The translations under genes and the position numbers were made by a program. This document shows, piece after piece, positions 11,942 to 42,228 of a stretch of 64,000 bases of DNA (within the stretch, counting starts at the first letter, position 1; every line of letters starts with the position of its first letter). This stretch comes from Thermoanaerobacter pseudethanolicus ATCC 33223. Its GTDB lineage: Bacteria > Bacillota > Thermoanaerobacteria > Thermoanaerobacterales > Thermoanaerobacteraceae. The DNA is taken from positions 1,809,001-1,873,000 of the forward strand of contig NC_010321.1 in the NCBI RefSeq assembly GCF_000019085.1, read 5' to 3'. Below the pieces are notes generated by a model. That model searched no databases and had not been told where the DNA came from. It saw nothing but the letters and a program-made list of their open reading frames with translations.

Positions 11942-12955
11942 ATGAACAAATTAGAATATTTGCAAAAATTTTATCCTAATACGGACAATAAAATTCTAGC
12001 AGAGCATCTCGGTATATCTGAGCAATCAGTCAGGAGATTGGCATCAAAATATAATATCAGAAAAAGTAAAGAGTATATGAAAAAACAGCATGAATTACTT
12101 TTAAAAGCAAAAGAAACTAAATATCTCTCGAGTATTCCAGATTTACATCCAACCAATTATCAATTAAATATAATTGTCGGTAGTATTTTAGGTGATGGAA
12201 ATTTGTCATATGCACCAAGAGGCAGAAATGCTTATTATAGAGAACACTTTTGTCAAGAACAATATGAATATAGATTATGGAAATGTACACAACTAAAAGA
12301 TTTAGGATTCAAAATTAATAAAAATAACACTTTAAAATCAATATCACATCCAATATTCTCTGCTTTGTATGAAAAATTTTATATTAATAAAAAGAAAACA
12401 ATCACTTATGACAACATCAAATTGCTCAATGAACCAGTAGGGCTTGCATGTTTATATATGGATGATGGTACTTTGGTTATTTCAAAAAATAATAAACCTA
12501 ATATAACTGTTAACCCTATTATAACATTATATACACTGAATTTTAGTGAAGAAGAAAATATTATATTGCAAGAACACATTTATAAAAGTTTTAATATTAG
12601 ATTTAATTTAAAACGACATCCAGATGGAAAAAAATATATTTTAACACTTGGGAAAAGAGAAGAAATTTTTAATTTTATAGATGTTGTGAAACCCTACGTC
12701 TCTCAAATAAGCAAAATGGATTATAAATGGAATATTGATAAAAGAATCCGTAAAGAAAGCAAAAATGTCAAAAGAATAAATTTAAGTAATTTTTATAGCC
12801 GGAAATTTCTTTCGTATACAAATGATGAGATAGACAAAATTATTGACTTTAAAAGAAGAGGCTTCTCAGATAAAGAAATTGCTAATAAGTTAAATAGAAC
12901 GTATTGGGGTATAGTATGGAAAATAAGAGACTTAAAAGCCAAAAATATGATTTGA
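11942..12955 (+). CDS. Free-standing LAGLIDADG homing endonuclease
   Basis: A 337-residue protein with two LAGLIDADG helices: IIVGSILGDGN (about 77-87) and VGLACLYMDDGT (about 166-177). Each supplies an acidic catalytic residue, so it is a monomeric two-motif enzyme resembling the LAGLIDADG_2 family. It is flanked by helix-turn-helix-like segments at both ends: NKILAEHLGISEQSVRRLASKY (about 16-37) and DEIDKIIDFKRRGFSDKEIA near the C-terminus. It lies outside any intron, on the strand opposite to flagellin, and its stop is 24 bp from the flagellin stop. The flagellin gene holds an ORF-less group I intron, so this enzyme may cut intronless flagellin alleles. The frame is intact. Confidence 0.88.
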   Translation: MNKLEYLQKFYPNTDNKILAEHLGISEQSVRRLASKYNIRKSKEYMKKQHELLLKAKETKYLSSIPDLHPTNYQLNIIVGSILGDGNLSYAPRGRNAYYREHFCQEQYEYRLWKCTQLKDLGFKINKNNTLKSISHPIFSALYEKFYINKKKTITYDNIKLLNEPVGLACLYMDDGTLVISKNNKPNITVNPIITLYTLNFSEEENIILQEHIYKSFNIRFNLKRHPDGKKYILTLGKREEIFNFIDVVKPYVSQISKMDYKWNIDKRIRKESKNVKRINLSNFYSRKFLSYTNDEIDKIIDFKRRGFSDKEIANKLNRTYWGIVWKIRDLKAKNMI

Positions 12956-12979: not shown

Positions 12980-14570
12980 TTATCTGAGTAATTGCAATAC
13001 TGTTTGTGGTAACTGATTTGCCTGAGCTCTTCCAGGCCGGTTCCTTTCGGATACCGAATAGATCATATCTTCATCCTATCAATTCTCTGATAGGAGCCGG
13101 GCGCTTCGGGATTTCTCCCTACGGACTTCAGCACCATAGGCTTTATGCCCTTAGGTGGTATGTCCTGATCGTTGAACCTTCTCCAACCTTTCGGTCCAGG
13201 AGCTTGGCTGCTGGTTGGCCAATCCCTTTATTTTTCAAACCATCGCACTTGCCGTTTCCGGCTATGCTGTGGTATAAAGGGCTCTAAGGCTTTTCCAGCA
13301 ATTCACCCGGTGATACTCCTGAGAATTGCTTCTCAGGACGCCTGTGAGAAATGGTTCATGCAGCCATTCTCTCAAGCATTGCGGTCGCTGCTTGGTTGAG
13401 GATATTGTTCTTTGTGAATTCCATCATTTCTTTTGCCATGTCTACATCTCTAATGCGAGATTCAGCTGCTGTGAGGTTTTCTGCTGCTGTGCCAAGGTTG
13501 TTGATTGTGTGTTCAAGTCTATTCTGATATGCACCAAGTTTAGAGCGTTCTGTAGATACCGTATCAATAGCTGATTGAAGTTTAGTAATAGCTGCATTCG
13601 CTGCGCTCTGTGTTGTAACATCAATTCCACCGATGGTAAAAGTTGTATTAGCAGTTACTGCAGCTCCCAGCGTAAATAAAGTTTTACCTTGCAGGTCTAC
13701 AAACGTTTTGTCATCTGCACTCTTACCAATTATTTCACCAGAAGCGTTTTTAAGCACTTTATTTGTGAAATCATACGTGTAAGTACCTGCATCTAAACCT
13801 TCATTGGTAACTGTAGCTACACCCGTTGCATTCGTACCATTAATTGTAATTTGCCCAGAGATAACCGGATCATTAAAGCTAATCGCGTCATTTGCTGCGT
13901 TTGTATAACTCTTACCATCCGTACTGGTCGCAACAATATTGCCTGCTTGGTCTTTTAAAAGATACTTGGTTCCATCATAGGATACAGTATAGGTACCATC
14001 ACTAATTAATGAACCACTTGCTGCTGGGGTAAAAGTACCTGTGATGCTGTAAGTAACACCTCCGACTACCTGTAAAGCATAACCTCGCATATCATTTATT
14101 GTAAGTGACAAATTTTGATTTTCATTAGCACCAATTTGGAAAATACCTTTGAAACTACCATCTAAAAGTTTTTGTGTGTTAAATTCAGTAGTTCGCCCTA
14201 TACGGCCCAGTTCCTGTGCTAATTGATCTATTTCTTTTTGAATTTGTGCCCTATCTGATGCTGTGTTAGTGTCATTTGCGGCTTGAACAGCTAATTCCCT
14301 CATTCTCTGAAGTATTGCCTGAGTTTCATTCAATGCACCTTCTGCTGTCTGAATGAGAGATATGCCATCTTGAGCATTTCTTTGAGCTTGGTTAAGTCCA
14401 GCTATTTGTGCTCTCATTTTTTCTGAAATTGCAAGGCCTGCCGCGTCATCTCCTGCTCTGTTGATTCTATAGCCTGATGAGAGTTTTTCTAAAGATTTTT
14501 GTGTGTTTGCAGTGTTAATTGAAAGTGCTCTCCATGCGTTTAACGCACTTAAGTTGTGATTGATAATCAT
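12980..14570 (-). CDS. hag: Flagellin, interrupted by a group I intron (exons 14570-13375 and 13028-12980)
   Basis: Main filament protein. The first exon encodes the N-terminal D0/D1 region (MIINHNLSALNAWRALSINT..., with LSSGYRINRAGDDAAGLAISEKM), a variable Thr/Gly-rich centre and most of the C-terminal D1 (AKEMMEFTKNNILNQAATAML). Read straight on, the frame ends five codons later (ERMAA, 404 residues), without the C-terminal D0 helix. The missing AQANQLPQTVLQLLR lies at 13028-12980. Joining the exons gives 1,245 nt, an intact 414-residue flagellin. AAGGAGGAAGGA before the ATG supplies the ribosome site and GGA motifs suited to CsrA. A sigma-28 promoter lies at 14676-14702. The exact junction is set by restoring the frame and may be off by a base. 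Confidence 0.9.
13029..13374 (-). ncRNA. Group I self-splicing intron in flagellin (IA-like, ORF-less)
   Basis: Coordinates are plus-strand positions; all pairings are on minus-strand RNA. P2 is 13318-13337 (CCTGAGAA-GCAA-TTCTCAGG). P3 pairs CCGGGTG (13304-13310) with CGCCCGG (13097-13103). The P element is AATTGCTGGAAAAGCC (13288-13303) and Q is CCAGCAGCCAAGC (about 13202-13214), giving P4 GCTGG/CCAGC. P7 pairs GATCA (13166-13170) with TGATC (13061-13065) within R- and S-like sequences (GTTCAACGATCAG; AAGATATGATC). P8 is CCTATCA/TGATAGG, and P9 is TTCGG/CCGAA. Extra hairpins between P7 and the second P3 strand fit P7.1/P7.2 of subgroup IA. The intron starts after a U and ends in G. A candidate guide is GGCTGCAT (13358-13365), but the usual U-G pair at the 5' site is not clear. 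Confidence 0.9.
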
Positions 14571-39163: not shown

Positions 39164-39192
39164 TTGACTCTATAAAAACATTGTGCTATTTT
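39164..39192 (+). promoter_or_regulatory. Promoter of the pan operon
   Basis: TTGACT, 17-bp spacer, TATTTT. It lies about 50 bp before the leader RNA element. Confidence 0.5.
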
Positions 39193-39240
39193 AAAAGTGG
39201 TGGTATCTTCATAGAACCACACACTTCATAAAAATTCAAT

Positions 39241-39290
39241 AGGGCTCATTTCGGCCCCGCCAGGATCACAAGACCGGGACGGGAGATAAA
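39241..39290 (+). ncRNA. pan RNA motif (candidate riboswitch) in the pantothenate operon leader
   Basis: The segment around CAAGACCGGGACGGGAGA, with pairing of upstream GGCCCCG to CGGGACGGG, resembles the pan RNA motif known upstream of panB-type operons in Firmicutes. The genes that follow are panB, panC and panD, as expected. Recognition is from memory of the motif; a covariance search is needed to confirm. Confidence 0.65.
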
Positions 39291-39294
39291 AAAT

Positions 39295-39321
39295 TACCTT
39301 CCCATCGGTGGAAGGTTTTTG
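39295..39321 (+). terminator. Leader terminator (attenuator) of the pan operon
   Basis: ACCTTCC-CATCGG-TGGAAGGTTTTTG, a terminator ahead of the first gene's ribosome site. GGGAGA (39281) can also pair with TCTCCC (39326) around it, linking the terminator to the upstream RNA element. Confidence 0.75.
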
Positions 39322-39352
39322 TTTGTCTCCCATGTAAAAGGAGGGATAAAAG

Positions 39353-40243
39353 TTGAAAATTGGATTTGTCGGGGCTGGTGTTGTAGGAACAAGCCTCGCT
39401 TTTTTGTTATCGCAAAAGGGTATTAATATATCAGGTTTTTTAAGTAGAAATTTAGAATCAGCTAAAAGATCAGCAAAATTTACACAATCTAAAGCCTTTT
39501 ATAATTATGAAGAGATTATTACAAATTCTGATGTAATCATAATAAGTACAAATGACAGTAGCATACCAGAAGTAGTAAATAATTTAAGTCAGTACAAGGA
39601 AATACTTAAAGAAAAAATTTTTGCTCATTTAAGTGGAGCTTTAAATTTAGAAGTTTTAAACCCTGTTAAAGATGAAAATAATTTTATCATGGTAATGCAT
39701 CCTATACAAACGTGCCCCTCTGTATCAGCAGCTTTAGAACTTCTCCCAAAATCCTATTTCACTTTAGAAGGGGATAAAAAAGCAGTTGAAATTGGAAAAG
39801 AAATTGTAAATAAAATATCAGGTAAATACATAGTTTTAAACAATATAGTAAGACCCCTTTATCATGCTGCTTGTGTTGTAGCCTCAAATTACCTTGTAGC
39901 TCTTTCAAAATTTAGTTTGCTTCTTTTAAAAGAATCAGGTTTTCCTTTTGAAAATTATCCTGATGCATTAATCCCTTTAATGGAAGGAACTTTAAAAAAT
40001 ATAAAAGAAAATGGAATAGCTAAAGCCTTGACAGGCCCTATAGCAAGAGGAGATATAAATACTGTAAAACTTCATCTTGAAAATATAAAAGATCCAAGTC
40101 TTGAAGAGCTTTATAAAAGTTTGGGTAAATTAACTCTTGAGATTGCTTATGAAAAAGGAAGTTTTAACGATGAAAAATATTTTGAATTGGAGGGTATATT
40201 AAATGGAGGAAAAAGTATCAACTCTCACACTAAGGAAATTTAA
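39353..40243 (+). CDS. DUF2520 Rossmann-fold oxidoreductase, candidate ketopantoate reductase
   Basis: A 296-residue NAD(P)-binding protein. The N-terminal Rossmann motif is MKIGFVGAGVVGTSLAFLLSQKG and the C-terminal domain is DUF2520 (HPIQTCPSVSAALELL..., HAACVVASNYLVALSKFS). It starts with TTG after GGAGGG and overlaps panB by 41 bp, so it is the first gene of the pantothenate operon. Classic panE is not seen here. The position suggests it performs or supports reduction of ketopantoate to pantoate (inference); DUF2520 proteins otherwise lack a settled role. Confidence 0.88.
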   Translation: MKIGFVGAGVVGTSLAFLLSQKGINISGFLSRNLESAKRSAKFTQSKAFYNYEEIITNSDVIIISTNDSSIPEVVNNLSQYKEILKEKIFAHLSGALNLEVLNPVKDENNFIMVMHPIQTCPSVSAALELLPKSYFTLEGDKKAVEIGKEIVNKISGKYIVLNNIVRPLYHAACVVASNYLVALSKFSLLLLKESGFPFENYPDALIPLMEGTLKNIKENGIAKALTGPIARGDINTVKLHLENIKDPSLEELYKSLGKLTLEIAYEKGSFNDEKYFELEGILNGGKSINSHTKEI

Positions 40244-41027
40244 GAAAGAAGGAAGAAAGATAACAGCTTTAACTGCTTATGACTTCCCCACAGCTAAAAT
40301 CCTTGACAATTGCGGAATTGACATGATTTTAGTAGGAGATTCTCTCGGGATGGTGGTTTTAGGATACGAAAGCACAATACCTGTCACAATGGAAGACATG
40401 ATACATCACACAAAAGCCGTTTCAAGGGCAGTCAATCGTGCATTTATAGTTGCTGACATGCCTTTTATGTCATATCACATATCAAAAGAACAGGCTATGA
40501 CAAATGCTGCAAGGCTTATTGCAGAAGGCGGAGCCCACGCCGTAAAATTAGAAGGAGGAGAAGAAATAGCTTCAATAGTCAAAGCCATAGTAGACGCAGG
40601 AATACCAGTGGTAGGTCATCTCGGTCTCACTCCTCAATCAGTCCATCAACTGGGAGGGTATAAAGTCCAAGGCAAAGAAAAGGAACAAGCAAAAAAGATT
40701 TTTAACGATGCCAAAGTATTAGAACAAGCAGGTATATGTGCCCTTGTGCTTGAAAGCATTCCAATGGAGCTTGCAAAAAACATTACAGAAAATATTTCAG
40801 TTCCAACTATTGGAATAGGTGCCGGTCCTTACTGCGATGGTCAAATCCTTGTCACCCACGACATGCTGGGAATAACTCAAGGTCATAGGCCTAAATTTGT
40901 AAAACAATACGCAGATATTGAAAAAATAATGATTGATGGCATAAATGCTTACATTAAAGAAGTACAACAAGTCTTATTCCCAGATGAAGAACATTCTTTT
41001 ACTTTAGAAAAGAGGGAGAATAAATGA
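40203..41027 (+). CDS. panB: 3-methyl-2-oxobutanoate hydroxymethyltransferase
   Basis: Makes ketopantoate from 2-oxoisovalerate and methylene-THF. The 274-residue TIM-barrel enzyme has ALTAYDFPTAKILDNCGIDMILVGDSLGMV (Mg-binding region), GGAHAVKLEGG, and GHLGLTPQSVHQLGGYKVQG. GGAGGG lies before the ATG inside the end of the preceding gene. It overlaps panC by 4 bp. Confidence 0.97.
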   Translation: MEEKVSTLTLRKFKKEGRKITALTAYDFPTAKILDNCGIDMILVGDSLGMVVLGYESTIPVTMEDMIHHTKAVSRAVNRAFIVADMPFMSYHISKEQAMTNAARLIAEGGAHAVKLEGGEEIASIVKAIVDAGIPVVGHLGLTPQSVHQLGGYKVQGKEKEQAKKIFNDAKVLEQAGICALVLESIPMELAKNITENISVPTIGIGAGPYCDGQILVTHDMLGITQGHRPKFVKQYADIEKIMIDGINAYIKEVQQVLFPDEEHSFTLEKRENK

Positions 41028-41875
41028 TAGTAACAGATAAAATTAGTAATGTAAGAAATATAATTAAAGAACAAAAATTGTCAGGTAAAAAAATTGGACT
41101 TGTACCTACAATGGGATATTTGCACGAAGGCCATTTGTCCCTCGTAAGAATTGCAAAAAAGCATTCAGATTTTGTAGCTGTAAGCATATTTGTAAATCCA
41201 ATTCAATTCGGACCTAATGAAGACTTTGATAGATATCCTCGAGACTTGGAAAGGGATTTAAAACTTCTTGAAAAAGAAGGCTGTGACCTTGTTTTTGCTC
41301 CTTCTGTAGAGGAAATGTATCCTTCTGAACTTCTCACAACGGTAAATGTAGATAAAATCACTGAAAAACTTTGTGGAGCTTTCAGGCCCGGTCATTTTAA
41401 AGGCGTCACAACAGTTGTGGCAAAATTATTTAACATTTTCACACCAGACATAGCAGTTTTTGGACAAAAAGATGCACAACAAGTTGCAGTGATAAAGAAA
41501 ATGGTGGAAGACTTAAATTTTCCTGTAGAAATAATTAAAGCCCCTATTGTAAGGGAAAGTGACGGTTTAGCAATGAGTTCAAGAAATGTATATCTAAATC
41601 CTGAAGAAAGAAAAGCAGCCCTAATACTTTCAAAATCTCTAAAAGAAGCTGAAAAATTACTTCTAAATGGCGAAAGAAATGCTAATACTATAATAAAAAA
41701 AGTAAATGAAGTCTTAAACTCAGAGCCTTTGTGCAAAGTGCAATATGTCTCCTGCGTTCATCCTGATACATTAGAAGACTTAACTTATATAAAAGATAAA
41801 GCACTTATTGCAATAGCTTGCTTTATTGGGACAACAAGGCTTATAGATAATCTATTGTGGGGGGAAAATATATAA
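41024..41875 (+). CDS. panC: Pantothenate synthetase
   Basis: Condenses pantoate and beta-alanine with ATP. The 283-residue enzyme has the HIGH-like [12 protein letters not shown] (near residue 30), [20 protein letters not shown] and the KMSKS-like MSSRNVYL (near 184). The start overlaps the panB stop (ATGA) and the stop overlaps the panD start. Confidence 0.97.
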
Positions 41876-42228
41876 TGCAAAGGTTTATGATGAAATCTAA
41901 AATACACAGAGCAATTGTAACAGATGCCAACTTAAATTACCAGGGTTCTATAACAATTGATAAAAATTTAATGGAACTTGCTGATATACTGCCAAATGAA
42001 AAAGTACAAGTTTTAAATATCAACAACGGTGCACGATTTGACACTTACGCAATAGAAGGCGAAAGAGGCTCAGGTACAATATGCATAAACGGTGCAGCAG
42101 CAAGACTATGTCAGGTAGGCGATATAATCATCATAATATCTTATGCAATAATGGATGATGAGGAAGCCAAAAATTATAAGCCTAAAGTAATATTTGTAGA
42201 TGAAAACAATAAACCTGTAAATATGTAA
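41875..42228 (+). CDS. panD: Aspartate 1-decarboxylase (pyruvoyl-dependent)
   Basis: Supplies beta-alanine for panC. The 117-residue proenzyme has [19 protein letters not shown]; cleavage before the Ser of GS yields the pyruvoyl group. [29 protein letters not shown] follows. The ATG at 41875 overlaps the panC stop (TAATG). A methionine five codons later is an alternative start. Last gene of the operon, followed by a terminator. Confidence 0.96.

Follow-up and report, generated by a model that had tools for sequence, protein, structure and literature searches.

The leader of the pantothenate operon in the window, by which we mean the whole 64,000-nucleotide stretch of Thermoanaerobacter pseudethanolicus ATCC 33223 DNA analyzed here, carries a pan RNA element followed by an intrinsic terminator, and one strand of the second pan hairpin (P2) has three alternative partners. 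The reading that we favor, and consider fairly likely, is that this pan-type leader senses pantothenate/CoA supply, with the P2 strand switching first into an antiterminator and then into a pairing with a segment beyond the terminator (A′). Sequence comparison across families makes such a switching strand a well-supported model for attenuation; for translation, the model is suggestive.

Results

Layout of the leader and its operon

An Rfam covariance-model search identified the pan-like element noticed in an earlier sequence-only reading as RF01749 (54.5 bits; gathering score 36.2). The match spans 39197-39286 on the forward strand, covers the full model (1-92 of 92; E value 9.9e-7 in the 64 kb window) and is the single one found in the whole 2,362,816-base genome. 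The two tandem hairpins of the motif, P1 and P2, are both present with two bulged A residues each. The span first given for the element, 39241-39331, takes in the linker hairpin, P2, the terminator and TCTCCC but misses P1. The operon panG-panB-panC-panD begins 66 nt past pan, which places the element upstream of panB, panC and panD as expected for this motif (Table 1).

The predicted transcription start lies near the first pan base. The promoter scan returned one site where 1.7 are expected from shuffles and is weak alone; in relatives, a similar TTGACA/T plus TGNTATTTT could be read by eye upstream of pan. The product of the first gene is probably a ketopantoate reductase, and we take it to be of the same family as YkpB of B. 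subtilis. We call this gene panG because the B. subtilis ketopantoate reductase YkpB bears the name PanG in the available excerpt of its description (PMC11487621).

Elsewhere in the window, a group I intron match (13038-13357, minus strand, 58.5 bits) lies immediately 3′ of a flagellin-like gene (13356-14570, minus strand), and an ORF on the strand opposite the intron (11942-12955) resembles a homing endonuclease, both gene likenesses being judged by eye. Two group II intron domain matches fall within 659-968 on the minus strand.

Table 1. Features of the pan leader and operon (positions in the window).
Feature	Position	Strand	Details and basis
Probable promoter	39164-39192	+	TTGACT, 17 nt, extended -10 TG-N-TATTTT
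pan hairpin P1	39197-39224	+	Bulged A39205, A39221; Rfam alignment, fold
Extra linker hairpin, GGGCTC..GGCCC	39242-39257	+	C39257 common to P2 base; fold, sequence
pan hairpin P2	39257-39282	+	Bulged A39265, A39279; 3′ strand is part of switching strand; Rfam alignment, folds
Switching strand GGGACGGGAGATAA	39276-39289	+	P2 3′ strand plus tail
Antiterminator partner ATTACCTTCCC	39293-39303	+	Overlaps terminator left arm; minimum-energy folds, cross-family tests
Intrinsic terminator hairpin	39296-39316	+	U-rich tail 39317-39324; terminator scan, fold, enrichment
A′, TTGTCTCCC	39323-39331	+	3′ side of the A:A′ pairing; partner GGGAGATAA, 39281-39289
Shine-Dalgarno AGGAGGG	39339-39345	+	7 nt after A′; sequence
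panG-like gene	39353-40243	+	TTG start; ORF; Rossmann + DUF2520, Pfam PF10728, E 3e-37
panB, ketopantoate hydroxymethyltransferase	40203-41027	+	ORF; PF02548, E 1.9e-121 at matching genome place
panC, pantothenate synthetase	41024-41875	+	ORF; named from sequence alone
panD, aspartate decarboxylase	41857-42228	+	ORF; named from sequence alone

A proposed switching strand and antiterminator

The intrinsic terminator reported after the element is present, with a U-rich tail, and lies between the putative sensor and the gene, as in an attenuator. Four terminator-like sites were found in 601 bases, both strands counted, against 0.5 expected. Of 144 pan loci, 132 were analyzed, leaving out six without a called start, one whose gene is 424 nt away and five with too-short leaders. 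A terminator was called in 119 of these 132 leaders compared with 122 of 660 shuffles, and the 13 leaders without one by the threshold used were left out of the antiterminator tests.

The switching strand can pair with the P2 5′ strand, with the left arm of the terminator or with the segment beyond it, and these pairings exclude one another on paper. In minimum-energy folds of the growing transcript, computed at 37 °C with kinetics ignored, the base of P2 is closed up to 39300. When the transcript ends within 39302-39314, the P2 3′ strand and tail are paired with the terminator left arm; at 39316, this antiterminator has given way to P2 plus the terminator; and from 39328 the A:A′ helix is added, with the terminator inside it. 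The source organism, a Thermoanaerobacter, is a thermophile.

Within the window, the antiterminator is no better than those obtained by shuffling the arm (p 0.761), and the case for it therefore rests on cross-family comparison. Per-locus shuffling reached p 0.05 in 26 of the 119 leaders, a test of low power, given that a run of pyrimidines remains able to pair with purine runs after shuffling. Our main test was swapping between families. Over 45 families, the mean duplex energy was -10.32 for a leader's own strands, -8.79 (sd 0.28) for between-family swaps and -7.90 for shuffled strands; the longest helix was 6.05 for own and 5.46 for swapped strands, with none of 1000 swaps reaching the own value. 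Changed tails are matched by changed arms (CGGAAGG/CCTTTCG, CAGAGGG/CCTTCTG and CGAATGC/GCATTTG), and the complement of the last three P2 bases and first two tail bases occurs in the arm of 74 of the 119 leaders (31.4 expected). For the order of genome G381, which we infer to be the Bacillales, own and swapped antiterminators are equal (-7.26 and -7.25) because both strands hardly vary, though the antiterminator is better than shuffled (-5.47). Taken with the terminator enrichment, the antiterminator supports the earlier proposal of attenuation via pan.

A longer pairing that encloses the terminator

The sequence-only reading had noted that GGGAGA (39281-39286) can pair with TCTCCC (39326-39331). 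This pairing exists and extends further, with GGGAGATAA and TTGTCTCCC forming nine of nine pairs, one of them G-U, and it is kept in relatives. The duplex, A:A′, reaches -15.6 kcal/mol (shuffle p 0.010, 300 shuffles), and the leader's minimum-energy fold contains it. It is kept in 11 of the 16 panG leaders in the window's family for which a terminator was called: two of seven in the window's genus, the one leader of a second genus and all eight of a third. When pairs were counted in a hand-set register, one leader, L004, proved to be altered on both sides (GGAAGA with TCTTCC), while in nine others U-A takes the place of the window's U-G, or of a mismatch-free variant thereof. In the other five panG leaders of the window's genus A′ is absent; they have a GGGAAA tail in common and have lost TCTCCC, and the called terminator is still present. 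Across the 45 families of the first set, A:A′ is weakly better than swaps (-10.16 versus -9.04, sd 0.65), and the enclosing helix is therefore a feature of some lineages. Given this weak signal and the losses in the genus, we rejected the idea that A:A′ belongs to every pan leader.

In the order of G381, pan occurs in 125 of 150 genomes, and the 73 loci taken (42 families) lie near panB, save one that is further off. The enclosing helix was tested at 61 of them (37 families), the 12 loci without a called terminator being left out. Pairing of the pan-to-terminator segment with the post-terminator segment gave -22.91 for own partners and -17.61 (sd 0.55) for family swaps; with the conserved tail removed, the values were -13.00 and -9.57 (sd 0.49). 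None of 200 swaps reached the own value in either comparison, and the helix beat 95 of 100 shuffles at 49 of the 61 loci.

Six terminator-less leaders picked by eye, five from this order and L298 from another, were also folded. A helix between pan and the Shine-Dalgarno sequence was as stable in 0 of 200 shuffles for L338 and L350, in 3 of 200 for L351 and in 4 of 200 for L298, where a wider fold contained the helix again (7 of 200); the remaining two, L053 (16 of 200) and L343 (50 of 200), had no clear A:A′ helix. Since control cannot act at that terminator in such leaders, it is natural to read a translational role there, and the helix in four of the six suggests a second, translational layer.

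Genes under pan and the probable effector

Genes under pan were tallied at 234 loci, close relatives included (16 loci labelled by hand; near contig ends, the register is off for L303 and perhaps for L310). These were panB (100), panG (92), panC (13), an ECF S component (8), a PanS-type transporter (6), an OPT transporter (3), BirA with ECF S (2), a BioY-family protein with ECF S and CoaX (2), ECF S with CoaX (1) and an amidohydrolase (1), and six loci had no near assignable gene. ECF S and BioY were assigned from Pfam; NCBIfam gave best E values of 1.7e-110 for the CoaX of L141 and 1.1e-92 for the PanS of L109, the latter with a score of 310.9, below the cut-off of 400 bits. Because pan stands before genes for pantothenate synthesis, uptake and a kinase, we consider pantothenate, CoA or an intermediate the probable effector; synthesis genes, PanS, an ECF S component and type III pantothenate kinase under one motif limit the candidates to the pantothenate-CoA route.

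Across the window's family, pan and panB occur together in 16 of 20 genomes and both are missing from two; pan occurs alone in one (G007) and panB alone in one (G015), where it sits 944 bases from a contig end. At the G007 locus (L015, 1501-1588), pan and a terminator stem remain with no pan gene after them and no panB match in the genome, apparently a relic after operon loss.

At L083 and L103, a BioY-family protein, ECF S and type III pantothenate kinase lie behind one pan leader. Since PanU, a BioY-like protein of B. subtilis, takes up pantothenate according to the excerpt available (PMC11487621), BioY-family genes under pan are possible pantothenate carriers, and the member at these two loci may carry pantothenate rather than biotin. 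In family f97 (L093, L113 and L115), pan precedes an OPT-family transporter, matched by Pfam for L093 and read by eye for the others, through which a CoA precursor may be taken up. In family f66 (L127, L131 and L132), a good Shine-Dalgarno sequence for the ECF S gene stands just past the pan end, with no in-frame ATG, GTG or TTG at the right distance; the ATT or ATA found there suggests a rare start codon.

Discussion

We propose the following direction of control. Without effector, the P2 base would open once the terminator left arm has been made, and the P2 3′ strand and tail (39276-39287) would pair with 39293-39303, blocking the terminator so that panGBCD is transcribed. An effector, either a metabolite or a protein sensing one, would keep P2 shut; the strand would be unavailable, the terminator would form and transcription would stop. 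A:A′ more probably acts at a later stage, in the readthrough RNA, where the same P2 strand would re-pair with A′. This long helix would let the terminator hairpin form harmlessly inside it and leave exposed the Shine-Dalgarno sequence that lies 7 nt downstream. If P2 stays shut, A:A′ would lose its first pairs and translation should fall. A broader claim is that pan leaders form a widespread class of two-layer switches: a single strand would be handed from P2 to the antiterminator and on to the post-terminator segment, so that transcription and translation are both set by one binding event, with the RNA itself as sensor and CoA or a CoA precursor as ligand; we regard this combination as a real but minor possibility.

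The proposed mechanism leaves two kinds of sensor to weigh. That pan is a metabolite riboswitch for pantothenate, a phosphorylated intermediate or CoA, built from two like hairpins, and not a protein target, is a proposal we hold tentatively and place just short of probable. The genes under pan, spanning synthesis, uptake and a kinase, favor it, as does the precedent of the guanidine-II riboswitch (mini-ykkC), which also has two like stem-loops and was once an orphan and a weak candidate before ligand binding was demonstrated, as the excerpt available recounts (PMC7266159). The sequence of guanidine-II differs from that of pan, however, and ligand binding by pan is putative. Furthermore, in the available portion of the 2010 description, which deals with hairpins and gene context, Weinberg et al. 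took the simple dimeric form as suggestive of a dimeric protein partner (PMC2864571).

A different role for A:A′ would be that of a bridge rather than a release of the Shine-Dalgarno sequence: the helix would stack under P2 and set the Shine-Dalgarno sequence beside pan, where a bound regulator could block the ribosome, much as one would in leaders with the Shine-Dalgarno sequence immediately after P2. The distance from the end of A′ to the Shine-Dalgarno sequence has a median of 10 nt (IQR 7-11, n=61, versus an IQR of 3-14 in shuffles), and in L017, L018, L020 and L021 the Shine-Dalgarno sequence directly follows or overlaps the pan end, both of which would suit a bridge. So would the lack of any excess of Shine-Dalgarno hairpins over shuffles. 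Pairing between A′ and the Shine-Dalgarno sequence likewise did not exceed shuffles, and direct sequestration by A′ was accordingly kept only as a possibility. On the other hand, A:A′ runs two bases into the P2 base at 57 of the 61 loci, which a pure bridge would not need, although with 47.0 expected from shuffles this argument is weak. Overall, we judge the bridge unlikely, though by no means negligible.

It is also conceivable, if quite improbable, that there is no switch, with pan being a protein-binding or stability element, the hairpin a constitutive terminator or processing site, and A:A′ a by-product of purine- and pyrimidine-rich leaders. The negative antiterminator test in the window alone would fit this, and we found no experiment in the literature read. 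However, the between-family swaps control for composition, and neither the antiterminator (0/1000) nor A:A′ without its conserved tail (0/200) was equaled by them. Finally, the part of the earlier attenuation proposal in which GGGAGA-TCTCCC is itself the deciding pairing, choosing between terminator and antiterminator, is almost certainly wrong: although the pairing is real and 11 of 16 family leaders keep it, A:A′ cannot itself decide termination because the terminator lies inside it and it needs bases transcribed only after the U tract. The minimum-energy folds hold helix and terminator together, and the five panG leaders of the genus that lack the helix still have a called terminator.

The switching strand adds to a motif already known. 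Pan (RF01749; Weinberg et al. 2010) was described as two hairpins with two bulged A residues each upstream of pantothenate genes, all of which the window shares; the portion of that description available contains no antiterminator, no coupling to a terminator and no long enclosing helix (PMC2864571). Available excerpts of transcriptome papers mention pan (PMC4634765; PMC5670726). The literature searched (supplements and subscription journals lay outside its scope) yielded no pan ligand, leader mechanism or description of an expression platform, and the remark in the sequence-only reading that no ligand is established stands. The nearest mechanism is that of the B. subtilis trp leader and TRAP, in which, as the excerpt available describes, one effector governs both attenuation and Shine-Dalgarno availability in the readthrough RNA (PMC12288461). 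By analogy, the pan leader possibly works similarly without being a member of that system: the RNA and regulator are unrelated, the translational layer of pan is a suggested one, and the hairpin sequestering the Shine-Dalgarno sequence in readthrough RNA that would make it TRAP-like did not rise above chance.

An orphan regulatory RNA is thus given a concrete, testable mechanism. The defined switching strand and the natural variants without a terminator or long helix lend themselves to single-base and compensating changes with termination as the readout. Should the RNA itself sense CoA or a CoA precursor as its ligand, pan would be a riboswitch for that pathway.
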